Below are positions 3,391 through 25,727 of a DNA stretch of 33,720 nt, one piece after another; position 1 is the first letter of the stretch; every line of letters starts with the position of its first letter. The notes beneath the pieces are model-generated. The model saw only the letters and a list, made by a program, of their open reading frames with translations, was not told the DNA's origin and made no database searches. Made by a program: the position numbers and the translations under genes. Source of the stretch: a virus; the IMG/VR virus record IMGVR_UViG_3300007351_000040, positions 1 to 33,720 of that record. One strand, given 5' to 3'.

Positions 3391-3638
3391 ATCAATCGGG
3401 GGATCTTTTGAAACGAATCGAATTTGATTTCTACGAGCTAAACCTCGGCGTGCTTGGCGTTCGAGATGTTCGCATTGTCGGCCAGGCTGATCGCATGATG
3501 GACGGCAAGATTGAGGTCATGATCACCAACGTGTTCTGCAATGGCGTCGACATCTTTCAACTTATCCCCCTCGATCAGTATGAGAACATGAAGGCGCGGC
3601 TCGCGATTAGCTACATCGATCCTAGGGTGGGGGCGTGA
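3387..3638 (+). CDS. Hypothetical protein
   Basis: An 83-residue protein with ATG 3387 overlapping the previous stop. The sequence alternates hydrophobic and polar residues (RIEFDFYELNLGVLGVRDVRIVG), suggesting a beta-rich fold, followed by a short helical end. A TTG at 3408 could be an alternative start after GGGGATC. No family is recognised. The stop is immediately followed by the next start at 3639. Confidence 0.6.
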   Translation: MNQSGDLLKRIEFDFYELNLGVLGVRDVRIVGQADRMMDGKIEVMITNVFCNGVDIFQLIPLDQYENMKARLAISYIDPRVGA

Positions 3639-4268
3639 ATGGAAATTGGTGTTACTCAGACACTAAAAGGCCTTCTAAAGCGCTCGCCCGATAAACTCAG
3701 CGAAGTTTCTGCGGCGATTAAGCATTATGTCAGCGAGTATAAACGGGCGATGAGAACCGTAGATGGTAAATCTGCAGCCCACTCTTTTCATGCGGTCGTT
3801 GACGGCCTGGTGAGCGAGACTCGAAAAGCAACCGGATCTAACCAACCGTCTTGCAGGCGGGGTTGCCACTTTTGTTGTTATATCCAGGTCGATGTATCTC
3901 CTGACGAGGCCGAGCTGTTGTTCAGCTATTTGAAGTGGAAGAGCCTGGAGTTGGATTGGGATCATCTCAAGCGCCAGGCGGCCGCGAAGAATTGGGGAAT
4001 GCTTTCCTTTGAGGACCGTAGGTGTGTCTTCTTGAGTGAAAATGGAGAATGTAAGGTCTACGAGCATCGTCCGATGTCGTGTCGAAAGTATTTTGTGAGT
4101 GGCGAACCGCAAATGTGCAATTCAAAAAAATATCCCAAAGGCGACGTTTTGGTCTACTCAGTTAACTATGCTGAAGTCGTTGCGAGTGCGGTCTACAGCT
4201 TGAGGGGCGCTAAGACATTAGCAAATGGGCTCATTGAGCAGCGATCTAAAAATGAAGTTTCAACGTGA
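3639..4268 (+). CDS. YkgJ-type cysteine-cluster protein
   Basis: A 209-residue protein with the zinc- or iron-chelating cysteine pattern of the YkgJ (CxxCxxCC) family. Cys72, Cys76, Cys79 and Cys80 lie in CRRGCHFCC; Cys129 and Cys138 lie in the middle; RPMSCR contains Cys148, with a further Cys160. The order C-x3-C-x2-CC ... C ... C ... RPxxCR is the family signature. Members are widespread and mostly uncharacterised, so the metal and reaction are unknown. It is unusual in a phage early operon and may have been captured from a host. ATG 3639 follows the preceding stop directly and is preceded by GGTGGGGG. Confidence 0.82.
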   Translation: MEIGVTQTLKGLLKRSPDKLSEVSAAIKHYVSEYKRAMRTVDGKSAAHSFHAVVDGLVSETRKATGSNQPSCRRGCHFCCYIQVDVSPDEAELLFSYLKWKSLELDWDHLKRQAAAKNWGMLSFEDRRCVFLSENGECKVYEHRPMSCRKYFVSGEPQMCNSKKYPKGDVLVYSVNYAEVVASAVYSLRGAKTLANGLIEQRSKNEVST

Positions 4269-5937: not shown

Positions 5938-6741
5938 ATGAGGCAGAACATCGACGAGAAGTGGAAGACCGATCCGCGCCGGACGGCGCTGGAAAAGCGT
6001 CTCGGATCGGGCCGCCTGGCCGATGGGATGAGGGTCGAAATCAATTGGCTTGTGCTGGCTCACAAAGGGCGGCCGATCCCGCTTAAGGAATTCAAGTTCG
6101 TTGAAAACTATCAAGACTGGATCGATTGCGAGCTGGCCGAGGTGCGCGGCGGGCTTGTGCACATCGCGGGCGCTGACGCCTATCAGGCCTTCTTTTCGAA
6201 GCAGGTAAAGAATGGCGGGAAGGGCGGGCGGCCGAAAACCCAAAAGAACCCAAAGCAAACCCAAACAAAGCCAGAAAAGCCCTCTTCCTCTATCTCTTCC
6301 TCTTCCTCTGGCTCTTTCTCTCCCTCTTTCTCCGACTCAACCTCTGACTCTGGCTCTAAAGAGGTTCCCGCGGCGCCGGCGGCGGCCGCTCCCCCGCCGG
6401 ACAAAGTTCTCCAGGTTTCAATCTGGGACAGCTATTCGCGGGCTTACTTCAGCCGCTACAAAACCGAACCCGTACGTAACGCCAAAGTAAACGCGCAGAT
6501 CAAGCAGCTGGCGAAGCGGCTAGGCAAGGAGGCGATCGATGTCGTCGAGTTCTACGTCCGGCATCCAAAAGCCTTCTATGTAGCCAAATGCCATGACATT
6601 GGGCTTTGCGTGTCGGACGCGGAAGCACTTCGAACCCAGTGGGCGCGAGGATCAGCGATAACCGGCACCGAAGCCCGCCACTCAGACACAGCCGGAGCAA
6701 TCCGGTCTCAACTTGAACGAATCGATAGGGGTGAACTATGA
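5938..6741 (+). CDS. Phage replication initiator-like protein (lambda O role)
   Basis: A 267-residue protein in three parts. Residues 1-100 are a basic N-terminal domain that may bind DNA (with GRPIPLKEFKF and GGKGGRP). Residues 100-150 are a low-complexity Gln/Lys/Pro then Ser-rich and Ala/Pro-rich linker. The remainder is a helical C-terminal domain (YFSRYKTEPVRNAKVNAQIKQLAKRLG...VEFYVRHPKAFYV). This layout and the position before a loader-like gene resemble lambda O-type initiators, in which the origin lies within the gene. ATG 5938 has AGGGGG just upstream; an upstream TTG at 5878 is less likely. The assignment is from architecture and context, not a strong family motif. Confidence 0.6.
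   Translation: MRQNIDEKWKTDPRRTALEKRLGSGRLADGMRVEINWLVLAHKGRPIPLKEFKFVENYQDWIDCELAEVRGGLVHIAGADAYQAFFSKQVKNGGKGGRPKTQKNPKQTQTKPEKPSSSISSSSSGSFSPSFSDSTSDSGSKEVPAAPAAAAPPPDKVLQVSIWDSYSRAYFSRYKTEPVRNAKVNAQIKQLAKRLGKEAIDVVEFYVRHPKAFYVAKCHDIGLCVSDAEALRTQWARGSAITGTEARHSDTAGAIRSQLERIDRGEL
6237..6333 (+). repeat. Candidate replication origin: phased repeats plus pyrimidine tract
   Basis: Inside the initiator-like gene, AACCCAAA occurs three times as a direct repeat (6237-6244, 6247-6254, 6258-6265), spaced 10 and 11 bases, one helical turn. It is followed by a nearly pure pyrimidine tract from 6280 to 6333, broken only at 6292 and 6310-6311. Lambda and relatives place iterons and an unwinding tract in the linker region of gene O, which is the same relative place. 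The same bases encode a flexible linker, so a purely coding explanation is possible. Confidence 0.4.
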
Positions 6742-7301
6742 GCCATGAACTGAAGAAAGCCATCGTCCTGACTCTCGGCTATTACGGCAGATCTGCAATG
6801 GACGAAGTGATCCAGATGTACGTCGACGACCTGGCCGACCTGGATCCGCGAAAATGCATCGCAGCCTATTCCCGGTGGAGATCTAACCCAGCCAATCGCA
6901 CCTTCCCGCTTCCAGCGGACATTCGAGTACTCGTGAATCCGGAAGAATACGTTGCGCCCGAAGCGCAAGCCAGGGAGATCGCTGGCCGGGTAGTAGGCTC
7001 GGTGGCCAAATTCGGCTACACCAACCCAAAAGAGGCCCAAGTCTACATCGGGCCCGTTGGCTGGTCGATTGTGCAACGGTACGGCGGCTGGCTCTACATC
7101 TGTGAAAACCTTGGCTGCAACTTCGATGTAACCACATTCCAGGCTCAGTTCCGCGATCAAGCTGAGGCGCTCCTTCGCTACGGCACTGAGGCTATGGATA
7201 GAGCCATCAACACCATGCCGGGAGCAGCCAGGAAAAGTGAGTTAACCGCCACGGGAAGCGTTTTAGAGCTTATGTCAAAACGAGACGAGCCAAAGCCATG
7301 A
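6738..7301 (+). CDS. Helicase-loader-like phage replication protein
   Basis: A 187-residue protein. Residues 1-65 fit the pattern of phage helicase loader/inhibitor proteins such as SPP1 G39P and related replisome organisers: two helices, then 'DLDPRKCIAAYSRWRSNPANRTFPLPADIRVLV', in which a conserved tryptophan/arginine helix is followed by FPxPADI. The rest is less conserved, with a Trp/Tyr-rich patch (GPVGWSIVQRYGGWLYI) and a helical tail. ATG 6738 overlaps the initiator stop (ATGA). Initiator plus loader adjacent to each other, with no helicase or primase in the window, suggests recruitment of host DnaB. It could also be a DnaT- or lambda P-like protein of other origin. Confidence 0.55.
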   Translation: MSHELKKAIVLTLGYYGRSAMDEVIQMYVDDLADLDPRKCIAAYSRWRSNPANRTFPLPADIRVLVNPEEYVAPEAQAREIAGRVVGSVAKFGYTNPKEAQVYIGPVGWSIVQRYGGWLYICENLGCNFDVTTFQAQFRDQAEALLRYGTEAMDRAINTMPGAARKSELTATGSVLELMSKRDEPKP

Positions 7302-7519
7302 ACGCAGTAAGGCCTTTTTTGACCACACCGAAGGACCTCCCAAAAGTTTCAGGTCAGCCGCAACCAGAAGAGCCAATCGTTTTTACCGTTTACCTCATGA
7401 ATGGAAAGATGCGCGCGCGCTGCCACCTGGCCGGTGATTTCACCAAGGGCTTTTACGATGCCGAGATCATTAACCCTGAAAACTTCGCAGGCATTGTCGA
7501 GACCTGGAGGAAGAAATGA
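7298..7519 (+). CDS. Hypothetical protein
   Basis: A 73-residue protein whose ATG 7298 overlaps the loader stop. It begins with a proline-rich segment (PFLTTPKDLPKVSGQPQPEEP) followed by a beta-rich part (IVFTVYLMNGKMRARCHLAG) and a short C-terminal helix. No family is recognised. It is co-transcribed with the replication pair by position. Confidence 0.65.
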   Translation: MNAVRPFLTTPKDLPKVSGQPQPEEPIVFTVYLMNGKMRARCHLAGDFTKGFYDAEIINPENFAGIVETWRKK

Positions 7520-7668
7520 AAACCCACGTCTTAACCGCAATCGGGATCGGGATCGCGTGGATCTTGGGCGCGCTAGTTCACGAGGATTCAATCGTCAGGG
7601 CTTTGCGACAAACGAGTCATGTACAGCTTTTCAACGGAGTTCACCTGAAATGCGAGATCAAGGAATAA
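7516..7668 (+). CDS. Small membrane-anchored protein, 50 residues
   Basis: ATG 7516 overlaps the preceding stop, and the stop at 7666-7668 overlaps the next ATG (TAATG). Residues 5-22 are hydrophobic (VLTAIGIGIAWILGALV), consistent with an uncleaved N-terminal anchor, followed by a polar tail of about 28 residues with one cysteine near the end. AAGGA within its last codons serves the next gene. Function unknown; a frame this short is supported mainly by the tight overlaps on both sides. Confidence 0.55.
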   Translation: MKTHVLTAIGIGIAWILGALVHEDSIVRALRQTSHVQLFNGVHLKCEIKE

Positions 7669-7898
7669 TGGAAATGCGGCTTACCATTTCGAGCATTGAG
7701 ATCATTCAATCGCTGATGATTTGTGGTCTTGATTCGGAAGAAATCCGCGAGTGGCTCCTGATGAAGAATAAAGCCTTTGAGGGGCGCTCGCCCCTTTACT
7801 TAATCAACCGCGGACGAGCTGAAAGAGTTCTGCAGTTCACACTTGAGGCGGAGGAGAACCCAAGCCTCGTTAAGGAGTTTGAAGATGACGACACTTGA
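7668..7898 (+). CDS. Solitary MbcA/ParS/Xre-type antitoxin domain protein (DUF2384-like)
   Basis: A 76-residue protein. After a short beta/helical start, residues 22-60 read DSEEIREWLLMKNKAFEGRSPLYLINRGRAERVLQFTLE. This matches the toxin-binding domain of Xre/MbcA/ParS antitoxins, whose core is a helix ending in WL, then 'n-x-a-l-x-G-x-s-P-l-x-l-i', a glycine and a final helix. Antitoxins of this class pair with RES-domain NAD-degrading toxins. No RES gene is visible next to it, and the usual N-terminal HTH is missing. ATG 7668 overlaps the preceding stop; ATG 7674 is an alternative with better spacing to AAGGA at 7660-7664. Confidence 0.55.
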   Translation: MEMRLTISSIEIIQSLMICGLDSEEIREWLLMKNKAFEGRSPLYLINRGRAERVLQFTLEAEENPSLVKEFEDDDT

Positions 7899-8091
7899 TT
7901 TCGTGTGGCTCTCGTCGCTGATGTTGGCATTCCTGTTTGGATTTATGCTTGGCATGAGGGACCGGAATTACTTCTGGAAGAAACACTCAGAAGATCTCGG
8001 CCAACAGATCGAGAGAATGAAGCAGGCGGGATTAGTCGAGAAGGCAGTTTCCAATGTGCAATTTAACCAAACAGATGGAGGTGGTACGTGA
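7885..8091 (+). CDS. Small inner-membrane protein with cytoplasmic coil
   Basis: A 68-residue protein. Residues 3-24 are hydrophobic (TLDFVWLSSLMLAFLFGFMLGM), followed by RDRNYFWKK and a charged helical segment (EDLGQQIERMKQAGLVEKAV), suggesting a single-span anchor with a coiled cytoplasmic part. ATG 7885 is chosen for AAGGAG at 7872-7877; it overlaps the previous gene by 14 bases. No function is evident. Confidence 0.65.
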   Translation: MTTLDFVWLSSLMLAFLFGFMLGMRDRNYFWKKHSEDLGQQIERMKQAGLVEKAVSNVQFNQTDGGGT

Positions 8092-8447
8092 TCGATGCAG
8101 AGCAATTGTCTACGAAAGAGGCGGCCAGAGAGCTTGGTTTAACCGAGTCGGGCGTCAATCAGATGATCTACAAAGAGCTGATCCCGAGCGACAAAATTGG
8201 GCGAAGGCGGTACGTCGCAAGAAGTATCGTTGAGGCCGTCGTGGATCTTAAGAACCAGTATGGCAAGCGCTGGCCAAAGCATGCGCCATGGAACGGTGGA
8301 GACTGGACGGCGCCTGAAGAAAAGCCCGATGTTCCGTCTGGCCTGAATCAAGAACTCCTGAAGTTGTCGCGTAAGTTTAGATCTGCGGGTCACGCGGATA
8401 TTGCGCTGAAGATTCAGGACATTTTACTCGATCAATATGAGTTCTAA
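8088..8447 (+). CDS. HTH regulator, MerR/excisionase-like
   Basis: A 119-residue protein with an N-terminal HTH. The region STKEAARELGLTESGVNQMIYKELIPSDKIGRRRYVARSIVEA (residues 8-51) is the HTH_17/excisionase pattern, with the 'K-x-G-R-R-x-x-v' wing. The C-terminal half is a linker (WPKHAPWNGGDWTAPEEKP) and two amphipathic helices that may dimerise. GTG 8088 overlaps the preceding stop and follows GGAGGTGG, a strong ribosome binding site. It closes the replication operon, so it may regulate that operon or the genes after 8648. A second excisionase is less likely because the protein before int already fits that role. Confidence 0.75.
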   Translation: MIDAEQLSTKEAARELGLTESGVNQMIYKELIPSDKIGRRRYVARSIVEAVVDLKNQYGKRWPKHAPWNGGDWTAPEEKPDVPSGLNQELLKLSRKFRSAGHADIALKIQDILLDQYEF

Positions 8448-8536
8448 AGTAATTCTTCCGCGAGTCGTTTGGCGGCGTGGGAAGCTGGAGTAGGTGTGGT
8501 CTTAAGGCCGCCGAAACTAGAGACACGCAGACGCAA

Positions 8537-8570
8537 TCCTAGGTTAGTCGAGTGGGCATGGTCCTAGGTT
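8537..8570 (+). repeat. TCCTAGGTT direct repeat upstream of the Acb2-like gene
   Basis: TCCTAGGTT occurs at 8537-8545 and again at 8562-8570, 25 bases apart, in the 200-base non-coding stretch 8448-8647. An inverted pair GGCGGC (8471-8476) and GCCGCC (8507-8512) lies just upstream. The stretch separates the replication operon from the accessory genes and probably carries a promoter and operator. I could not assign clear -35/-10 boxes. Confidence 0.35.
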
Positions 8571-8647
8571 TTACCATTCAGTCGGAGTCGCGTCCGGCCC
8601 AGGCGGCTCGCGGATTTTTAAACAGCCGAAAGGCAAAGGAGAGAAAT

Positions 8648-8899
8648 ATGGAACTAGGTATCAGCGAACAAAAGTACAAGGAAATCGTTTCGCGCTTCAC
8701 GAATCACGTCCCGGATAAAGCGACCGTCGATAAGATGGCGGGCATTCGGCGCAAGGTTCGTGAACTGGCGTTCTTGATCGAAAAAGAATGTCCTGAGTCG
8801 CGCGAGAAAGCGACGGCGCTCACGCAATTAAGTTTCGTCATGATGTCGGCGAATTCTGCGATTGTGCAAGTGTGCCCGGTTAACGAGAGCGAGCTTTAA
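8648..8899 (+). CDS. acb2: Acb2/Tad1-like cyclic-nucleotide sponge (anti-CBASS/anti-Thoeris candidate)
   Basis: An 83-residue protein resembling the Acb2/Tad1 hairpin family, small phage proteins that sequester cyclic oligonucleotide signals made by CBASS or Thoeris and so block abortive defence. Family-like features in order are FTNH (residues 17-20, where I recall many members having FxYH), IRRKVRELAFLIEKECPESREKATALTQL (33-61) with the P-x-S-R-E-K core, and the C-terminal helix MMSANSAIV (65-73) matching 'MWANAAIAR'. Length is typical. ATG 8648 follows AAAGGAGAG and has its own upstream region. The Asn at position 19 where I recall Tyr, and the missing Arg after AIV, may change ligand preference. 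I did no database search; the match is from memory of the family. Confidence 0.78.
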   Translation: MELGISEQKYKEIVSRFTNHVPDKATVDKMAGIRRKVRELAFLIEKECPESREKATALTQLSFVMMSANSAIVQVCPVNESEL

Positions 8900-9014
8900 A
8901 ATTTTGGTCAAGGCGCTGGCGTTGGCCCGGCGTAGATTGAGGACTGTCCACCTGGGCGAGTGGAGACTTCATACAGACCTCGAGCAGGCGCCGAGACCTT
9001 TAAGGAGTGAGAGA

Positions 9015-9227
9015 ATGAGAATCAGTGAATTGATAAATGCATTGAGCAAACTAAAAACCACGCTCGGCGACAATCAAGTTGTGTTTCGCAAGGCGCATCC
9101 AGGCGGTTATACATCCGACCACACGCTACAGCTTGGCGTATTTTATCCCGACGACACGGTTGCATTCATGGCTGGCGAGCAAGTGGACGATAAGTGCGAC
9201 GCCAAGGTATCGGAGATGAAGGAATGA
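9015..9227 (+). CDS. Hypothetical protein
   Basis: A 70-residue protein. ATG 9015 is supported by AAGGAG at 9002-9007; the longer frame from 8862 lacks a ribosome binding site and overlaps the sponge gene. The N-terminus MRISELINALSKLKTTLGDNQVVF resembles the start of a widespread group of small phage proteins ('MkvseLieaLsklpqDaeVvv'), followed by a short beta-rich part. Function unknown. The 115 bases before it hold no other gene. Confidence 0.68.
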   Translation: MRISELINALSKLKTTLGDNQVVFRKAHPGGYTSDHTLQLGVFYPDDTVAFMAGEQVDDKCDAKVSEMKE

Positions 9228-9718
9228 AAACAGTAATAGGCTGGGGTTATGTTTCAAGCATCGAGCATGCTGCTTTTCATGATGATTTACGAACTCTTTC
9301 TGAAAGGATGGCTGTGCAGATGACCTACCCCCGAATCAAAGAGCTTGGGCTTGAGGTACAGACCGGCTCAATGGCAAATTACATAAACGCAGAAGACCTA
9401 GAGCGCATTTTAGAGCAGGGCGTGAGGGTCTACATTGCACGGTCAAAAACTGATGGGGCTATTTTAAATACTACAACCATTGATGGTTATCGAAACGACT
9501 ATTATCAAACGCAAGCATTAATGATTGGCGAAAAACCGATTCAGCGAGATACGGCTGAGAGTTTGCTTAGTGAGTACATCAAAACGCTAAAGGAATATTC
9601 ATACACTCCGAAATCAGGTGAACAATATAAGCAAAGCGGTGGTCACTTAAATATTCCGGCTGAGGTATTGATTGAGCTAGAAAATCGCGCACGCAAACTT
9701 CTGGAGCAGTCCAAATGA
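9224..9718 (+). CDS. Hypothetical protein
   Basis: A 164-residue protein starting at ATG 9224, which overlaps the preceding stop. No family is recognised. The middle is polar and tyrosine-rich (ATIDGYRNDYYQTQ-type composition), and the C-terminal 60 residues are helical and charged (AESLLSEYIKTLKEYSY...PAEVLIELENRARKLLEQSK). Base composition of the gene looks more AT-rich than its neighbours, which may mean a more recent arrival; this was not computed. No membrane segment or cysteine motif. Confidence 0.65.
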   Translation: MKTVIGWGYVSSIEHAAFHDDLRTLSERMAVQMTYPRIKELGLEVQTGSMANYINAEDLERILEQGVRVYIARSKTDGAILNTTTIDGYRNDYYQTQALMIGEKPIQRDTAESLLSEYIKTLKEYSYTPKSGEQYKQSGGHLNIPAEVLIELENRARKLLEQSK

Positions 9719-9984
9719 TAACCCGCGCTGAGTTGGATAAGGTGAGGGACGAGTTAGTTAAAGAACTAATGAAACACTCACAACTTTATGTTTATCAGCG
9801 CGGTCCGCAGGAGATGTTCGACGCCGCCGTCTCGCTGCTTTGGCCGGTGATTGAAGCGTGCGGGAACAAGTGGATAGTTACTTATGCTGAAAGAACTGGG
9901 CGGGGCGAAATCGGCGAGAGTGACAGAGAAGTTTTTAGAGCCATAGTTAAGTCCCTCTCTGAATTAAAGGAGCGTGTGAAGTGA
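9715..9984 (+). CDS. Hypothetical protein
   Basis: An 89-residue, mostly helical protein with ATG 9715 overlapping the preceding stop. The line QEMFDAAVSLLWPVIEACGNKW resembles small phage proteins of unknown role that contain 'fdaA...L.pviea'. The ends are charged. No catalytic motif is seen. It belongs to the coupled accessory chain 9015-12048. Confidence 0.65.
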   Translation: MITRAELDKVRDELVKELMKHSQLYVYQRGPQEMFDAAVSLLWPVIEACGNKWIVTYAERTGRGEIGESDREVFRAIVKSLSELKERVK

Positions 9985-10253
9985 AAACCCTAAACGAGTA
10001 CTTAGAGCAGGTGGAGAAGAGGGTGAGTGATGCGACTGAGTGTTACGACGGCGCGGGCGAAAATCGCGAAATTGCAATGGCGAATTACACGATGGGCGAT
10101 GAGTATGTCGCCGACGTGCCCACGCTTATCAAGATGCTGCGGCTTGCGATTGAGCAGAGGAACGATTACCGAGCATACGTAAAGCATTTCGGTGAGAATC
10201 TGAGCGAAGCCGCCGACGACGCCGAACTGCTGCGACTGGCGAAGGGGGAGTGA
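9981..10253 (+). CDS. Hypothetical phage protein
   Basis: A 90-residue acidic protein starting at GTG 9981, which overlaps the preceding stop; GGAGCG lies ten bases upstream. The segment VADVPTLIKMLRLAIEQRNDY matches a recurrent phage motif ('..DvptLlaml..a.e.rd.y') in short proteins of unknown function. It has no membrane segment. The C-terminal AKGE overlaps the ribosome binding site of the next gene. Confidence 0.66.
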   Translation: MKTLNEYLEQVEKRVSDATECYDGAGENREIAMANYTMGDEYVADVPTLIKMLRLAIEQRNDYRAYVKHFGENLSEAADDAELLRLAKGE

Positions 10254-10432
10254 TGGAAGTTTGGCTTTATGGTCCAGAGAGATGCGATTGGTTATGGCAA
10301 GTTATTTTGTTCGATGGCAGAAACACATACTGGACGGACGAGATGATTCCTTCATCGGGTTACAGCCGTCGCAGGTTGAAAAGTATGGGCCGTTTTGGTG
10401 TCGGGCGCTTTTACAAGATCGGTGACTTATGA
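10253..10432 (+). CDS. Hypothetical protein, 59 residues
   Basis: An aromatic-rich, basic protein (MEVWLYGPERCDWLWQVILF...YWTDEMIPSSGYSRRRLK). I chose ATG 10253 rather than GTG 10250 because AAGGGGGAG lies immediately upstream with better spacing. No family recognised. It overlaps the next gene by four bases (ATGA). Confidence 0.58.
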   Translation: MEVWLYGPERCDWLWQVILFDGRNTYWTDEMIPSSGYSRRRLKSMGRFGVGRFYKIGDL

Positions 10433-10743
10433 CCCTCAAAGAAAAAGTGCTAAAGGCTACGGAGTACGACGCATCTAAATTTGAAAAGGCGTTAGCCGTT
10501 GAAGATATGAATAGCGAGGACCGCGATTATTTAGAATTTTTGCGTGGTGAATGGAATGAAAACGCCCGCCTTCGCCCGCTCCTTGAGGCGCTGGCTGAGC
10601 GTGAATCTGAGATTACTGAATGCCTGAAGGAAATCATTAGGGATAGCCCCGACATCATATCCAAAAAGCTTTGCTCTGAGGTTCTACACAATGGAGAAGC
10701 ACTCGCTAAACTCGAGGCGCTGCTCGGTAAGGAGGGGACGTGA
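10429..10743 (+). CDS. Hypothetical helical protein
   Basis: A 104-residue protein, highly charged and predominantly helical, with coiled-coil-like spacing in the middle (NENARLRPLLEALAERESEITECLKEIIRD). ATG 10429 overlaps the preceding stop. Its last codons contain AAGGAGGGG, the ribosome binding site for the next gene. No known family. Confidence 0.65.
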   Translation: MTLKEKVLKATEYDASKFEKALAVEDMNSEDRDYLEFLRGEWNENARLRPLLEALAERESEITECLKEIIRDSPDIISKKLCSEVLHNGEALAKLEALLGKEGT

Positions 10744-10931
10744 TGGGTAAAAAACCAATAACGAACGGTCAGGGAAATATGACGTACACAAACGACGAGG
10801 TCGGGCACGACTGGAGATCACTCGCAATTGGCTCTCAAAAAATTCAATCCTGTAAACGATGCGGAATCGTTCGACGTGCCGACGACAAAAACAAACCGTG
10901 CAAAGGAACAGTACGTGTCAAAACACGATGA
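10743..10931 (+). CDS. Small probable zinc-binding protein
   Basis: A 62-residue basic protein. The sequence CKRCGIVRRADDKNKPCKG, preceded by HDW about 15 residues earlier, gives a His-x-x ... C-x-x-C ... C set that could bind one zinc ion. This layout is seen in many tiny phage proteins of unknown role. ATG 10743 is preferred over GTG 10740 for spacing to AAGGAGGGG. It overlaps the next gene by 17 bases in another frame. Confidence 0.6.
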   Translation: MGKKPITNGQGNMTYTNDEVGHDWRSLAIGSQKIQSCKRCGIVRRADDKNKPCKGTVRVKTR

Positions 10932-11403
10932 GACCGACCCTAAGCGCGAGCCGAAGGTGAGGGAGTGGACGCTCTGTTCAAATTACAGCACAGATCACGA
11001 TGCGATGAAATGGTTTGTGTCACGCGACTCTGAGATAACTCCGGAGGTGGAAAAGCCCGAACGCGTCCACGTCATCGAACACTCAGCCTTCGAGCAAATG
11101 AAGCGCGAGAGGGATGAGCTTAAGGTCGAAGTCGAGCGGCTGAAAAGTGAAAGCCTCGAAATGTTAAGTATTGCCGGTCAAGAGCACATCACGCGAACAC
11201 TGGTGCAAGCCGAAAAGCGGATACTTTGCGCCGAACGCGACCGCGCACTGGCCATGCTCGAGAAAATGGCCGTGGCGCTGGAGAAAGTAAAGCCAGCGCT
11301 GCAAGTCGCGCTCGACGACACTGGCGACCTTTATTACGCAAACGTATCGGGCGACATTGATGAAGCCCTCACCCCAGAGAGGCGGAAGAGGTATTTAGAA
11401 TGA
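10915..11403 (+). CDS. Coiled-coil hypothetical protein
   Basis: A 162-residue protein. I chose GTG 10915 because AAGGA lies at 10903-10907; the frame is open further back to 10828, but there it is buried in the preceding gene. After a polar N-terminus, residues of about 55-130 form a long charged heptad-like helix (FEQMKRERDELKVEVERLKSE...ERDRALAMLEKMAVALEKV), so the protein is probably a coiled-coil dimer. Phage proteins with this 'ereRdelkaevErLr' block are common in accessory regions and lack a known role. Confidence 0.68.
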   Translation: MSKHDETDPKREPKVREWTLCSNYSTDHDAMKWFVSRDSEITPEVEKPERVHVIEHSAFEQMKRERDELKVEVERLKSESLEMLSIAGQEHITRTLVQAEKRILCAERDRALAMLEKMAVALEKVKPALQVALDDTGDLYYANVSGDIDEALTPERRKRYLE

Positions 11404-12097: not shown

Positions 12098-12325
12098 ATG
12101 GCAAGCACTGAGAAATTAATCGCTAAACTAAAGAATGGCTCGATAAACGCGAAGGAATTGCGAACGCTCTTAAAGCAGGTTGGCGCCGAACATGTTCGAA
12201 CTAAGGGTTCTCATGAAATTTATCACCTGCCCGGTCGTGTCTTCGTGCTAGCAACCCATTCAAAGGATTTGAAACGATATATGATAAAAGAGGCAATGGA
12301 GTTCATAGGAGTGGAAAATGAGTAA
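12098..12325 (+). CDS. hicA: HicA-family mRNA interferase toxin
   Basis: A 75-residue toxin of the HicA family (dsRBD-like fold) that cleaves mRNA unless bound by HicB. Signature features are the N-terminal helix, VGAEHVRTKGSHEIYHLP with the catalytic His39 in KGSH (residues 36-39), and the C-terminal hydrophobic segment MIKEAMEFIGV. Length is normal and the catalytic residue is intact, so it is probably active. No ribosome binding site precedes ATG 12098, and the predicted transcript starts at that ATG, suggesting leaderless and probably low translation. It overlaps hicB by eight bases. Confidence 0.92.
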   Translation: MASTEKLIAKLKNGSINAKELRTLLKQVGAEHVRTKGSHEIYHLPGRVFVLATHSKDLKRYMIKEAMEFIGVENE

Positions 12326-12755
12326 CAATAAAGAGTATTTGGTTAAGCGTTATACCAGAATCCTGAGCTGGTCGGATGAGGATCAGGTTTATATTATTCG
12401 CGTGCTCGAACTTCCAGGCTGCGTAACTCACGGAGATACGATTAAGGAGGCCTGGGCTAATTCTGATGAGGCGGTTTTGGGAGTTTTGGAAACTCTTGAG
12501 GCAAAGAGAGAGCCATTGCCTACGCCCGCGGCCTCAGCCAATAAGCAAGCGCAGTTTCCTTTGCGCCTTTCCGAGAAAGTGCATCACGTAGTTAAGGCGA
12601 TCTCTGATGTCAGAGGGATTAGTATGAATGACTTGATTTTGGATGCGATCGATTCCGTGTGCCATGTTTTGCCTGGCCAAGAGAAGCCCGTGCACAAGTC
12701 CATTGAGGTTGTTCGACCTAAAGCCGCCAAGAAGACCGCTAGGAAGCGGGCGTAA
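12318..12755 (+). CDS. hicB: HicB-family antitoxin
   Basis: A 145-residue antitoxin. Residues 1-65 are the partially degraded RNase H-like HicB fold (WSDEDQVYIIRVLELPGCVTHGDTIKEAWANSDEAVLGVLE). A linker leads to a ribbon-helix-helix-type DNA-binding end (FPLRLSEKVHHVVKAISDVRGISMNDLILDAID, about 92-125) and a basic Lys/Arg-rich tail. It neutralises HicA and should repress the promoter at 12063-12091. ATG 12318 has AGGAG at an ordinary distance, unlike hicA, so antitoxin would be made more efficiently. The toxin-first gene order is usual for hicAB. It ends two bases from a convergent gene with no terminator between them. Confidence 0.92.
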   Translation: MSNNKEYLVKRYTRILSWSDEDQVYIIRVLELPGCVTHGDTIKEAWANSDEAVLGVLETLEAKREPLPTPAASANKQAQFPLRLSEKVHHVVKAISDVRGISMNDLILDAIDSVCHVLPGQEKPVHKSIEVVRPKAAKKTARKRA

Positions 12756-13989: not shown

Positions 13990-15006
13990 GTGGCGAGAAA
14001 GTGTCTGGTTACCGGCTTTGCTGGCTTTATCGGTTCACACCTTTCCGATCGACTCCTTGAAGAAGGTTACACTGTCGTCGGCGTCGACAACTTCTCGACC
14101 GGCACCATCGAAAATGTGCAGCGCCTTAACAAAAAACACGCAAATCTCCCCGCTGGCCGCATTCACTTCGTCAGAGGCGACCTTTTCGATCGCGACGTCA
14201 TCTTCGAAATTTTTCGTGTTCACCCCGATATCGAGTGGGTGTTTCATCAGGCCGCCTTGGGAAGTATTCCAAGAAGCCTTAGGAATCCGCAAAACACATT
14301 CGAGTCAAATGTCGTGGCGTTTAACAACGTACTCGGCGCGGTCCTTCAGCACCGACAAAACGTAAAGCGGTTCGTCTTTGCGAGCTCAAGCTCCATCTAC
14401 GGTAAGTGTGCCGACGGCGCGCGCGTTGAAACGATGGATCCGGTTGGTTGGCAAAAGAATCCCTATGGCGCATCTAAGTACATGAACGAGGTGCAGGCCC
14501 TCGCTTGGGCTGCGGCCTTTGGGTTAGAGGTCATAGGCCTAAGGTACTTCAATGTCTTTGGGCCCTTTCAGCGGGCTGATTCTGAATACGCGGCCGTCAT
14601 TCCAAAATGGATTCGGGCTGTCAGATCTGGCGAGCCTATGGTCATTCAAGGGACTGGAAAACAAAAGCGCGACTTCACTTATGTGGATAACGTGGTTGAT
14701 GCGAACATGCTTGCAGCCCATGCACCGAGTAGTGCCGCGAACAGCTGTTACAATATCGGTTGTGGCCAGAGCGTCTCCCTCCTCGATCTTCAGCGTGAAA
14801 TTACGGTTCATGCGGCGGTCAGAGGGATAAAGAGCCCATGGGTTGAGATGGTTCGCGCGCGTGAGAATGATATCGCTGACGCCTATGCGGACATCAACCT
14901 TGCAAGAACCTATTTGAATTACGAGCCAAAAGTAGATTGGAAGAGGGGCATTAAGCACACATGCGAATTGCTGTTGTCGGAAACGGAATTGTTGGCGGAG
15001 CCTTAA
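13990..15006 (+). CDS. NAD-dependent nucleotide-sugar 4-epimerase (WbpP/TviC type)
   Basis: A 338-residue extended short-chain dehydrogenase/reductase. Visible features are the NAD-binding GFAGFIG (residues 9-15), Asp-rich VDNFSTG (32-38), HQAALGSIPRSLRNP (86-100), SSSSIYG (132-138) and catalytic Tyr159/Lys163 in YGASK. The AALGSIPRS block is characteristic of UDP-N-acetylglucosamine 4-epimerases of the WbpP/TviC group rather than GalE, so the probable reaction is UDP-GlcNAc to UDP-GalNAc (or the uronic acid forms). Length is full. GTG 13990 follows GAAGGGGG at a rather wide spacing. It overlaps the dehydrogenase gene by 46 bases, suggesting a two-step pathway for a surface or virion sugar. 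Confidence 0.9.
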   Translation: MARKCLVTGFAGFIGSHLSDRLLEEGYTVVGVDNFSTGTIENVQRLNKKHANLPAGRIHFVRGDLFDRDVIFEIFRVHPDIEWVFHQAALGSIPRSLRNPQNTFESNVVAFNNVLGAVLQHRQNVKRFVFASSSSIYGKCADGARVETMDPVGWQKNPYGASKYMNEVQALAWAAAFGLEVIGLRYFNVFGPFQRADSEYAAVIPKWIRAVRSGEPMVIQGTGKQKRDFTYVDNVVDANMLAAHAPSSAANSCYNIGCGQSVSLLDLQREITVHAAVRGIKSPWVEMVRARENDIADAYADINLARTYLNYEPKVDWKRGIKHTCELLLSETELLAEP

Positions 15007-15809
15007 GGCTTTGGTTTGAAACCCATTTGCCCGAAGTCTCAATCGGCATATGGGATCCGCCTCAAGGGAAAAAAGATCCAATCGACGAGTCGGTTGAGGT
15101 CGCCTTCATTTCAGTTCCCGTTCCAACAAAAGGCTTTAAGCAGGACTTAACAATCCTCCACTCCGCCATTCAGGCCTCAATGCTCGCGAAATACATTGTA
15201 ATCAGATCAAGCGTCGTACCTGGCACCTGCGACACGCTCTCTAGTATTTACGGCCGAGCCATCATCGCCATGCCTGAGTTTTTGACCGAGCGAACCGCCT
15301 TCCAAGACTTCTGCAATCAAGACGTGATCATTGGTTATCCCGATCAGTTTAAAGTGGACGCGAATTGGTGGGTTCCGTTCGTATCCATATTCGGAAATCT
15401 AAAGCGCATTCGCTGGGCATCGGCCATGGAGTGTGAGCTTGCGAAATACGCCCATAACTCCTTTGGGGCGTTCAAGGTCACGTACTTCAATATGGTCTAT
15501 CACTTATGCACTGAGCACGGTCTTCAGTTCGAGCGCGTGAGAGAAATGGTGCTGGCCTCTGGCTACATCAATGAAACCCACACCCATGTGCCGGGCCCGG
15601 ACGGCCGCCTCGGTTATGGCGGCAAATGCTTTCCAAAGGATCTCTCGGCCTTTATTGGTTTTGTAAACGACAACCCGGCACATGTCCTTTTAAAGGATGT
15701 GCTATGCCTGAATCGCCTTTATAGAGGCCCTGATCCTGAGATTGAATTGAAAAATACCCCCACACGAGAACCAAATTTAACCAATCAGGAGGTTTCAGGT
15801 GGAGGATAA
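14961..15809 (+). CDS. UDP-sugar 6-dehydrogenase-like protein, C-terminally short
   Basis: A 282-residue member of the UDP-glucose/GDP-mannose dehydrogenase family. It shows the Rossmann start MRIAVVGNGIVGG, AFISVPVPT (49-56), RSSVVPGT (82-89), MPEFLTERTAF (104-114), AKYAHNSFGAFK (161-172) and the catalytic GYGGKCFPKD with Cys223. Typical enzymes have 400 or more residues and a C-terminal UDP-binding domain, which is absent here, so the protein stops soon after the catalytic site. It may work as a minimal dehydrogenase, use a different substrate, or be impaired. ATG 14961 lies inside the epimerase gene. The pair suggests UDP-HexNAc to uronic acid chemistry, as in Vi-type antigens. Confidence 0.85.
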   Translation: MRIAVVGNGIVGGALRLWFETHLPEVSIGIWDPPQGKKDPIDESVEVAFISVPVPTKGFKQDLTILHSAIQASMLAKYIVIRSSVVPGTCDTLSSIYGRAIIAMPEFLTERTAFQDFCNQDVIIGYPDQFKVDANWWVPFVSIFGNLKRIRWASAMECELAKYAHNSFGAFKVTYFNMVYHLCTEHGLQFERVREMVLASGYINETHTHVPGPDGRLGYGGKCFPKDLSAFIGFVNDNPAHVLLKDVLCLNRLYRGPDPEIELKNTPTREPNLTNQEVSGGG

Positions 15810-16122
15810 GGCCATTGAATTCACGGTCACGGATCAGCCGACATTAAAAGAGCTCGAGCGCCGCTATTTTGTTGCGGTCATGAAGGTGGTTGATCACGAC
15901 ATCGCCAAAGCCGCTCAGATCCTAGGTCTCACGCGTTCAGGTGTTTACTCTAAGATTCGAACGCATAAGATCGAGCACAATTTTAAGCGCCCGCAGATGG
16001 TTGCGAAGTATCGAAATGGTACAGCCACTGAAATAGGCAGCGATTCACGCCGATACAGTTCCCCTGAAGGGGTTCCAAGTGCCGGCGTTCAAACGAAACA
16101 GGGACCGGAAAAGTCCGTCTAA
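15799..16122 (+). CDS. Stand-alone Fis/NtrC-type HTH protein
   Basis: A 107-residue protein. Residues 14-57 (TLKELERRYFVAVMKVVDHDIAKAAQILGLTRSGVYSKIRTH) closely follow the Fis-type HTH at the end of NtrC-family activators ('LkelEkryil.vL...ggn...AA..LGisrstLyrKl'). The activator's ATPase and receiver domains are absent, so this is a free DNA-binding module. The tail after residue 65 is polar and probably disordered. GTG 15799 is preceded by AGGAGG and overlaps the dehydrogenase stop. Located directly before the terminase genes, it could be a late-gene regulator or a packaging-site binder. Confidence 0.8.
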   Translation: MEDKAIEFTVTDQPTLKELERRYFVAVMKVVDHDIAKAAQILGLTRSGVYSKIRTHKIEHNFKRPQMVAKYRNGTATEIGSDSRRYSSPEGVPSAGVQTKQGPEKSV

Positions 16123-16531
16123 AATCTCCCGAGAAATCGTGGAGAAGATCTGCGATGCTCTAAGGCGCGGTTGGTATATTGAAACGGCCGCGGCCTACGC
16201 TGACATATCAAAAGTCACCCTCTATGAGTGGATGAAGAAGGGCAATAAGGAAAAAGACGGCCCCTTCGCCGAATTCCTTCAAGCCATTGAAATCGCGGCT
16301 GAGCAGGGCGAGGGGAAGATTTTTGAGCACGTGGAGAATGCGGCTGAGAGCGATTGGCGGGCCGCCGCCTGGATACTTGAGCGAAAGAACGCAAAACGTT
16401 GGGGTAAGAAAGAGACGATAAAGCTCGAAGATCAGCACACCAAGGAATCGAACTTCGATATCGGAACGGTCAACCAAATTATAGCTACGGAGCTTGATCA
16501 GCTTGAAGACAAAGACCGCTGGGAAGACTGA
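16079..16531 (+). CDS. terS: Terminase small subunit
   Basis: A 150-residue protein that recognises phage DNA for packaging. The HTH region ISREIVEKICDALRRGWYIETAAAYADISKVTLYEWMKKG (residues 16-55) is followed by KEKDGPFAEFLQAIEIAAEQGE and SDWRAAAWILERKNAKRWG. Together these are the hallmark of a widespread small-terminase group. GTG 16079 overlaps the Fis-like gene by 44 bases and follows GAAGGGG. The stop overlaps the large-subunit start (TGATGG), so the subunits are coupled. Confidence 0.9.
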   Translation: MPAFKRNRDRKSPSKISREIVEKICDALRRGWYIETAAAYADISKVTLYEWMKKGNKEKDGPFAEFLQAIEIAAEQGEGKIFEHVENAAESDWRAAAWILERKNAKRWGKKETIKLEDQHTKESNFDIGTVNQIIATELDQLEDKDRWED

Positions 16532-18003
16532 TGGATCCCAGGCTCAAGGACTGGCGCTGGCGCTGCAATAACCTCTATCGCATCGTCGATAAGAACGGAA
16601 AACTCGTCAGGTTTGAAGAGAACTGGATTCAAAAGCGGATCAACGAGAATCGTTCGCGCCGGAAGATGATCCTTAAGTACCGCCAGGGCGGGGTGACGAC
16701 TGGCGAGGCGAAAAAGCAGCTCGATTTCGTAAGCTTTGGGAGAAACCGCACGGCCTGTATCATGGCCGATTGTGAAGACAACTTAGGGAAGGTCTTCGGC
16801 AAGGTAAAGCAGCTTTACCAGTTCATGCATCCGACCTTTAAGCCGCGCCTTGACCGCGGTGGTGGCTCGTCCACAGAACTCAGGTTCCCCGATATCAACG
16901 GCAAATTCTACTGTGCGCTCCAAGTGCGGGGTGACACGGTCCATTGGCTCCACATCTCAGAGGCGGCGTTTTGTAAGCCCGATCGAGTGCGCGCAGCCCT
17001 TGAGACGGTTCCACCAAAAGGCATCGTGACCTTTGAATCAACTCCCAACGGCCTTGGTAATCACTTCTATAAGCGCTGGATTGCGAAGTCCGACGAGCTC
17101 GCGAAACTCTTCTTCCCTTGGTTCTTTAACCCCGAGTACGTGAAGGACGGAAACCGGATTAAAGAGCTGAGCCTTGAGGAGAAGAAATTCATGCAAACGG
17201 TAAAGGCTAAATACGGTATTTCGATCACGAAGGATCAGATCGCCTTTCGAAGATCGAAACAAGAAGACCAACAAGAGCTCTTTCTTCAAGAATACCCAGA
17301 GGACGACATCACGTGCTTTGTTTCATCTGGCGGCTCAGCCCTTGATCTTGACCGGGTTAAACGGATGCTCGACCGAGCGCCGGAGCCAATCGAGGACACC
17401 GGTGAGCTTAAGGTTTGGAAGACCTATGATAGCTCGCGCGTCTACGCATGCGGGGCGGATACCGCCGAAGGTGTTGGCCGCGATTATTCAGTCGGCACGA
17501 TGTTCGATGTGGAAACCATGGAAGAGGTTGCGCAAGTGAGGTCCAACAAGTGGCGCCCCCGGGAATTTGCGCACAAACTAAACGAACTGTGCGCCCGGTA
17601 TACAAAAACCGGAAGACTATGGCCGCTCCTTGGCGTCGAGCGCAACAATCATGGGCATGCTGTTCTCCTCGAGCTTGAGGAACATCTCGACTATCCAAAT
17701 CTCTATTATTTCAAGGAGAATGAAGGCGATAAGCTCGCCGGCTGGAAAACCGACTCGATCACCCGTCCCATCATGGTTGACGCATTTATAGACGGTATCG
17801 AGAATGAAACCGCCACAATCAACTCGAGAGAGACTTTGGCCGAATGTTTAACCCTGATCGACAATAACGGTAAGATTGAAGCCGAGGAGGGTGAGAATGA
17901 CGACTGCGTTATCAGTTCGGCCATTGGCATCCAAATGTGCATCAAGGCCAAAGGTACAGTCGGCCTTTATGACGACCTCCACAACAAAATTCTTCTTGGG
18001 TGA
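16531..18003 (+). CDS. terL: Terminase large subunit (ATPase-nuclease)
   Basis: A 490-residue packaging motor. The ATPase half has a Walker A-like KYRQGGVTTG (residues 49-58) and Walker B with catalytic Glu144 in HISEAAF. The RNase H-like nuclease half has Asp310 in CGADTAEG, Glu370 in GVERNNHG and the Asp457/458 pair in NDDCV. All catalytic positions are present and the length is normal. ATG 16531 overlaps the small-subunit stop. The enzyme docks on the portal encoded two genes downstream, pumps DNA into the prohead and cuts concatemers. Confidence 0.96.
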   Translation: MDPRLKDWRWRCNNLYRIVDKNGKLVRFEENWIQKRINENRSRRKMILKYRQGGVTTGEAKKQLDFVSFGRNRTACIMADCEDNLGKVFGKVKQLYQFMHPTFKPRLDRGGGSSTELRFPDINGKFYCALQVRGDTVHWLHISEAAFCKPDRVRAALETVPPKGIVTFESTPNGLGNHFYKRWIAKSDELAKLFFPWFFNPEYVKDGNRIKELSLEEKKFMQTVKAKYGISITKDQIAFRRSKQEDQQELFLQEYPEDDITCFVSSGGSALDLDRVKRMLDRAPEPIEDTGELKVWKTYDSSRVYACGADTAEGVGRDYSVGTMFDVETMEEVAQVRSNKWRPREFAHKLNELCARYTKTGRLWPLLGVERNNHGHAVLLELEEHLDYPNLYYFKENEGDKLAGWKTDSITRPIMVDAFIDGIENETATINSRETLAECLTLIDNNGKIEAEEGENDDCVISSAIGIQMCIKAKGTVGLYDDLHNKILLG

Positions 18004-24731: not shown

Positions 24732-25727
24732 TTGAAGGTCGACGCAAATTCCACGGTAGCGCAGTCGAAGAACGCTTACGCTCAGTGGGCCGATGTGTGG
24801 CGAAAGCATTCAAAGATTCACGCGCGGTTTGCTCCACATAAACCACTCCTCGACTTTATGAACTATGGCGTAGGCCGCGCGTGCCTTATCGTCGCCAACG
24901 GCTACTCCTTTGAAGAACACATTGATGTGATCAGGGAGCACCAAGATAAGGTCGACATTCTTGCGATCGATAAAACCCTCGGGCACTTACTTGATCACGG
25001 CATTAAGCCGACCTTCTGCCTCGTGGCCGATGCCAATGTGAACTACGAGCGATACATGGAGAAGTGGAAGGGCCAGCTCCATGAGACAACCCTTTTTATG
25101 AACGTTTGCGGGAATATCAAATGGAGCATGAACGGCAATTGGAAAGACCGGTACTTTTTCGTAAATCACGACGTGATCAAGTCGGAGATAGAATTCTCGG
25201 GCCTATCGGGTTGCCAGAATCTTATTCCGGCCGGCACCAACGTTTCAAACGCGGCCGTCGTGTTTCTCACTCAAAGCGACAATACTGGACGAAGGAACTA
25301 TTTCGGCTATGACAAGATCCTCTTGATTGGCTTTGATTACTCGTGGCGGCTTGGCGGCAAGTACTATGCCTTCGATGTCGACGGCGACGGCAAAGCGAAT
25401 TACATGCGTCATGTCTACTGCGCCACCCGGGCCGGGAGCCATGCCTATTCGAGTTCGAACCTTCTTTACTCGGCAAAGTGGCTTGAAAAGTACGTGAACA
25501 ACTTCCATTTGCCGGTCGTTCAGTGCAGCCAAGAGACGCTGCTCGGAATTAAGCATTACGGGAATCTGGCCGAACAAATGCAATATGGCTTTAGGCCCGA
25601 GGATCGCGACTTGATTAGATCCGAGCTTGGCCGACGTGATAAGCTTCTAAGGGAAGCTCACGATATTGAAAAGCGTGTTTTGAAAATCGGGACCGAGCAC
25701 TACTATCAAATGATGGCCACGGTCTAG
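24732..25727 (+). CDS. DUF115/MAF-type glycosyltransferase-like protein
   Basis: A 331-residue protein with the DUF115 (MptE-like/MAF flagellin glycosyltransferase) pattern. Visible are GRACLIVANGYSFEEHI (48-64, nucleotide-binding glycine-turn region), ILAIDKTLGHLLDHGIKPTFCLVAD (77-100), IPAGTNVSNAAVVFL (165-179) and GYDKILLIGFDYSW (192-205). In MAF proteins this domain transfers nonulosonic-acid-type sugars. Its place inside the tail operon is odd and suggests glycosylation of a virion protein or of the host surface. TTG 24732 is used because GGAGGG at 24722-24727 fits and no better start exists. The short C-terminal helix is unassigned. Confidence 0.82.
   Translation: MKVDANSTVAQSKNAYAQWADVWRKHSKIHARFAPHKPLLDFMNYGVGRACLIVANGYSFEEHIDVIREHQDKVDILAIDKTLGHLLDHGIKPTFCLVADANVNYERYMEKWKGQLHETTLFMNVCGNIKWSMNGNWKDRYFFVNHDVIKSEIEFSGLSGCQNLIPAGTNVSNAAVVFLTQSDNTGRRNYFGYDKILLIGFDYSWRLGGKYYAFDVDGDGKANYMRHVYCATRAGSHAYSSSNLLYSAKWLEKYVNNFHLPVVQCSQETLLGIKHYGNLAEQMQYGFRPEDRDLIRSELGRRDKLLREAHDIEKRVLKIGTEHYYQMMATV

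Follow-up and report, generated by a model that had tools for sequence, protein, structure and literature searches.

A short gene in an uncultured phage contig raises the question of whether it encodes an immune sponge of the Acb2/Tad1 hairpin family and, if so, which signal nucleotide this sponge would hold. The window analyzed here comprises 33,720 nucleotides, corresponding to positions 1 to 33,720 of IMG/VR record IMGVR_UViG_3300007351_000040. The gene was read on the plus strand from 8648 to 8899; 83 codons occupy positions 8648-8896, followed by a stop codon at 8897-8899, and the encoded protein is MELGISEQKYKEIVSRFTNHVPDKATVDKMAGIRRKVRELAFLIEKECPESREKATALTQLSFVMMSANSAIVQVCPVNESEL. An earlier note, made from the sequence alone, had described an 83-residue protein containing CPESREKATALTQL, FTNH and SANSAI at this place, and all of these features were found in the open reading frame.

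The gene and its phage

A ribosome-binding site, AAAGGAGAG, is located at 8635-8643 on the plus strand, 4 bases 5' of the ATG at 8648, and suits this start codon well. A longer reading frame starting with GTG at 8552 was considered less likely, ATG 8648 being favored for its ribosome-binding site. Comparison with the two related genes L002 and L003 revealed 30, 22, and 55 differences at codon positions 1, 2, and 3 for L002 and 25, 20, and 47 for L003; since the differences fall mostly at third positions, the gene is under purifying selection. Furthermore, the block CPESREKATALTQLSFVMMSANSAIVQ is identical in all three proteins. The gene is genuine and, given also the profile matches described below, more than a chance reading frame. 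A scan for promoters and terminators gave no signal above chance level, and a search for tRNAs and Rfam RNAs found none.

The gene content of the contig points to a temperate tailed phage, with genes encoding RecT (437), a YqaJ nuclease (1435), a tyrosine integrase (4477), terminase (16079-18003), portal (18091), capsid (21839), and tape measure protein (27392). A nucleotide search with the first 25 kb against 50,697 phage records returned no match, and the terminase and capsid matches, none above about 30% identity, pointed to many different hosts. A CxxCxxCC putative zinc- or iron-chelating protein is encoded at 3639-4268, adjoining the integrase gene and an excisionase-like helix-turn-helix gene, and an MptE-like (6-hydroxymethylpterin diphosphokinase-like) protein at 24732-25727 amid head and tail genes. 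Genes for an NAD-dependent sugar epimerase and a UDP-glucose/GDP-mannose dehydrogenase lie at 13990-15809, directly before the terminase genes, and perhaps serve surface sugar changes.

The hairpin gene itself lies among small unknown genes. An anti-defense island around it was considered and discarded; the neighbors at 7298-11400 have no PHROG matches, and PADLOC reported only a weak match to a helix-turn-helix protein (mad1, 8088-8444) and a marginal one to a cyclase (9981-10250). A HicA toxin and HicB-like antitoxin pair is found at 12098-12755; the Paenibacillus phages Bob and Lily have HicA- or HicB-like genes as well, located beside their hairpin gene.

Family membership and predicted fold

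The Pfam profile PF24729 (Acb2/Tad1 hairpin) matched the protein with an E-value of 6.2e-12 and 46 bits as compared to a curated cut-off of 27, aligning residues 20-74 with profile positions 3-58 of 58; nothing else in Pfam matched. PHROG 1454 was matched with an E-value of 4.5e-18. T4 Vs.4, which is T4 Acb2, also scores on PF24729, and NCBIfam holds no model for either protein. This profile search is decisive: judged by its sequence, the protein belongs to the Acb2/Tad1 hairpin family, as had been proposed. The protein adds a member to a known family and does not amount to a new kind of system.

Close relatives were obtained from IMG/VR only. L002, L003, L100, and L101 share 55-65% identity with the window protein and form one group with it in the tree (support 100/100, long stem), and all five match PF24729. 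Members of this divergent subclade were found solely in IMG/VR contigs in these searches, and the genome contigs searched yielded no close relative. All five carry NSAIVQ and a P-[VL]-[DN] tail, both absent from the rest of the sampled family. A neighborhood shared within the clade was not seen; a PDDEXK nuclease is encoded upstream of the L002 gene and a polysaccharide deacetylase upstream of the L003 gene.

Phages of Paenibacillus, Gordonia, and mycobacteria encode further members of the family, the PHROG 1454 or FxYH hairpin proteins. These resemble the window protein in FxxH, SREK, ALT, and AN (31-44% identity) and differ from it at position 19 (Tyr, Phe, or His), at position 67 (Trp), and at position 74, which is Arg in most cases. 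Several Paenibacillus phage records label such proteins 'putative phosphomannomutase', e.g., L013:298-513 (Halcyone); this looks like a propagated misannotation.

The monomer was modeled with AlphaFold2 using 41 locus sequences as the input alignment. The model reached a pLDDT of 93.6 and consists of helices 7-16, 24-47, and 52-73. In an Acb2 protomer, a short helix accompanies two long helices that run antiparallel to each other (PMC12043709, PMC10419184). The predicted layout, a short N-terminal helix followed by a two-helix hairpin, is the same, and supports the hairpin expected from the earlier note. A Foldseek search of 350,542 PDB chains placed T4 Vs.4 chains with cGAMP at ranks 1, 2, and 5 with weak E-values, the best being 0.59 (7uq2), and the VIA Z values of 7.2 (7uq2) and 6.7 (8h2x) lie inside the helical-hairpin background. 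Weak E-values are not surprising for a protein this small and helical. The fold search agrees with Acb2 and is no proof of it.

Apart from being the best Foldseek match, T4 Acb2 (Vs.4, PDB 7uq2) shares with the window protein the Pfam family, the helix layout, a basic residue at position 34, Thr59 (Thr68 in T4), and Gln74 (Gln83 in T4). It differs in two pocket positions, Tyr8 being replaced by Asn19 and Phe82 by Val73, in overall sequence (about 19% identity), and in its hairpin loop, which is shorter in the window protein. The Acb2 of PaP2-type Pseudomonas phages (PDB 8h2j, 8h2x; chain p26) agrees with the window protein in helix layout and in the basic residue, the Thr, and the Gln at the end, again at about 19% identity; its Tyr11 is Asn in the window protein. 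The closest solved sequence by profile is Acb2 homolog 43 (PDB 9ptq; E-value 2e-9). This protein also lacks the aromatic residue (FDTH), but carries Thr where the window protein has Asn.

Asn19 and the other pocket positions

Asn19 is encoded by AAT at 8702-8704. In a MAFFT alignment it coincides with Tyr8 of T4 Acb2 and Tyr11 of PaP2 Acb2, for T4 also by Pfam register (profile position 2), confirming the remark in the earlier note that the usual Tyr is Asn here. The aromatic pocket residue of the T4 type is therefore missing. Replacement of Tyr8 by Ala disrupts cyclic-dinucleotide binding of T4 Acb2 (PMC12657218, PMC12657230), and Y8A served as the binding-deficient control in PMC12657230. 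Since the aligned Tyr8 is needed for cyclic-dinucleotide binding, Asn19 is probably of functional relevance.

The other four clade members have Phe at position 19, encoded by TTC or TTT. At least two base changes separate these codons from AAT, making a single misread base at 8702-8704 an unlikely explanation; AAT is one base change away from an ancestral Tyr codon TAT. Among 138 distinct relatives, position 19 was Tyr in 95, Phe in 22, His in 19, and Asn and Pro in one each, the single Pro (L019) having been Phe in an earlier alignment. Asn was found in 3 of 173 sampled family cores and is therefore rare, although these counts derive from samples selected by similarity and pattern and are not unbiased frequencies. 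A degenerate pattern combining FxNH with the downstream motifs retrieved two contigs only from all of IMG/VR, as compared to at least 120 for the Tyr version. Both contigs, L184 and L185, encode genuine family members. The three Asn proteins stand apart on the tree, in which well-supported branches force at least two independent changes, from Tyr or Phe backgrounds; the tree is based on a short alignment and leaves many forks unresolved. His, Phe, and a few Asn, Ser, or Thr also occur at this position. On these sequences, the family as a whole is not defined by an aromatic residue at position 19.

Both Asn proteins retrieved by pattern are longer than a plain hairpin. The L185 protein (6236-6715, minus strand; FNNH) has an N-terminal extension of about 90 residues without a Pfam match and may represent a fused sponge or one resembling Tad1. 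The L184 protein (3583-4083, minus strand; FTNH) has a C-terminal extension of about 80 residues.

The other conserved positions, Arg34, Arg52, and Thr59, are retained. Arg34 (8747-8749) is invariant in the 138 relatives and aligns with a Lys in T4 and PaP2 Acb2; Arg52 (8801-8803) of the SREK motif is kept in 136 of them. Lys26 and Arg67 of PaMx33/PaP2 Acb2 presumably contact the ligand and, if positions are counted without gaps from Tyr11 and Thr74, would correspond to Arg34 and Arg52. Thr59 (8822-8824), kept in 134 of the 138 relatives, aligns with Thr68 of T4 Acb2, where the exchange T68M lowers binding (PMC12657230). Phe82 of T4 Acb2 stacks on the bound base (PMC12657218); Val73 stands at this site, and most family members have Ala there, so this difference from T4 is ordinary. 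At position 74 (8867-8869), most hairpin relatives carry Arg and all five clade members Gln. The lack of this Arg after the terminal helix had been taken as an oddity hinting at a changed ligand. This argument fails, because the best-characterized proteins, T4 Vs.4 and PaP2 Acb2, have Gln there too.

Proposed function and ligand

We consider it likely that the protein is an Acb2-type sponge with altered ligand preference. Folded as the predicted short helix and two-helix hairpin, it would probably assemble into a hexamer, as the solved Acb2 proteins suggest, and, as its family suggests, would sequester cyclic oligonucleotides made upon infection by a CBASS-like system of the host, so that the cell-killing effector stays off. 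The phage would thereby counter a cyclic-nucleotide defense of its host, as the earlier note inferred. Binding of cyclic dinucleotides would probably be weakened or changed in specificity, since Asn replaces the pocket Tyr and the charged and polar residues at the remaining conserved sites are retained. The dinucleotide and trinucleotide pockets of Acb2 are independent (PMC12043709); loss of the Tyr should therefore weaken the binding of dinucleotides and leave that of trinucleotides intact, and cyclic trinucleotides, held in the separate pocket, would be the likelier ligand.

It is possible, though doubtful, that the protein is instead a broad sponge still binding cyclic dinucleotides well, with Asn19 or another residue replacing Tyr at little loss. 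The tolerance for other residues at position 19 within the family, including Thr in the solved homolog 43, speaks for this reading, but it conflicts with the effect of Y8A in T4, and the window protein has no aromatic residue at the Phe82 site either, though Ala is usual there in the family.

We propose only tentatively that the protein is a natural variant which has given up dinucleotide binding through Asn, has kept the trinucleotide pocket, and would not set off Panoptes-like guards that use dinucleotide decoys. Dinucleotide-binding Acb2 triggers Panoptes and the Y8A and F82C alleles do not (PMC12657218), T68M is present in a naturally resistant phage (PMC12657230), and Asn arose repeatedly. 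That Asn19 is an adaptive escape from such a guard, dinucleotides being dropped and trinucleotides still sponged, is nevertheless unlikely: nothing indicates Panoptes in the host, and the trinucleotide activity is only putative. The relevance of Asn19 for Panoptes is speculation.

Replacement of a key pocket residue could also mean that the hairpin fold was kept and nucleotide binding lost, the gene having another role or decaying. This is quite improbable in view of the open frame with its ribosome-binding site, the purifying selection, and the block shared with L002 and L003. A Tad1-type sponge for the Thoeris signal gcADPR is highly improbable: PF24729 includes the hairpins of Tad1 as well as those of Acb2, and weak profile matches to Tad1 chains were obtained, but the N-terminal antiparallel beta-sheet of Tad1 and the loops building its gcADPR pocket (PMC12043709) are absent from the window protein, whose approximately 20 residues before the hairpin are predicted as one short helix. 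Of the ligands named in the earlier note, gcADPR is therefore the least likely.

The annotation as an Acb2-family member is correct and useful, and the pocket change is real at the level of sequence. The finding extends Acb2-type counter-defense to an uncultured phage group for which the search of sequenced isolates gave no relatives at the nucleotide level. With its gripping residue replaced, the sponge may catch a different signal molecule. Acb2 sponges block CBASS yet trigger Panoptes, a sensor of cyclic-dinucleotide loss. A natural variant at the residue controlling dinucleotide binding raises the question of whether phages tune their sponges to block one defense and not trigger the other.
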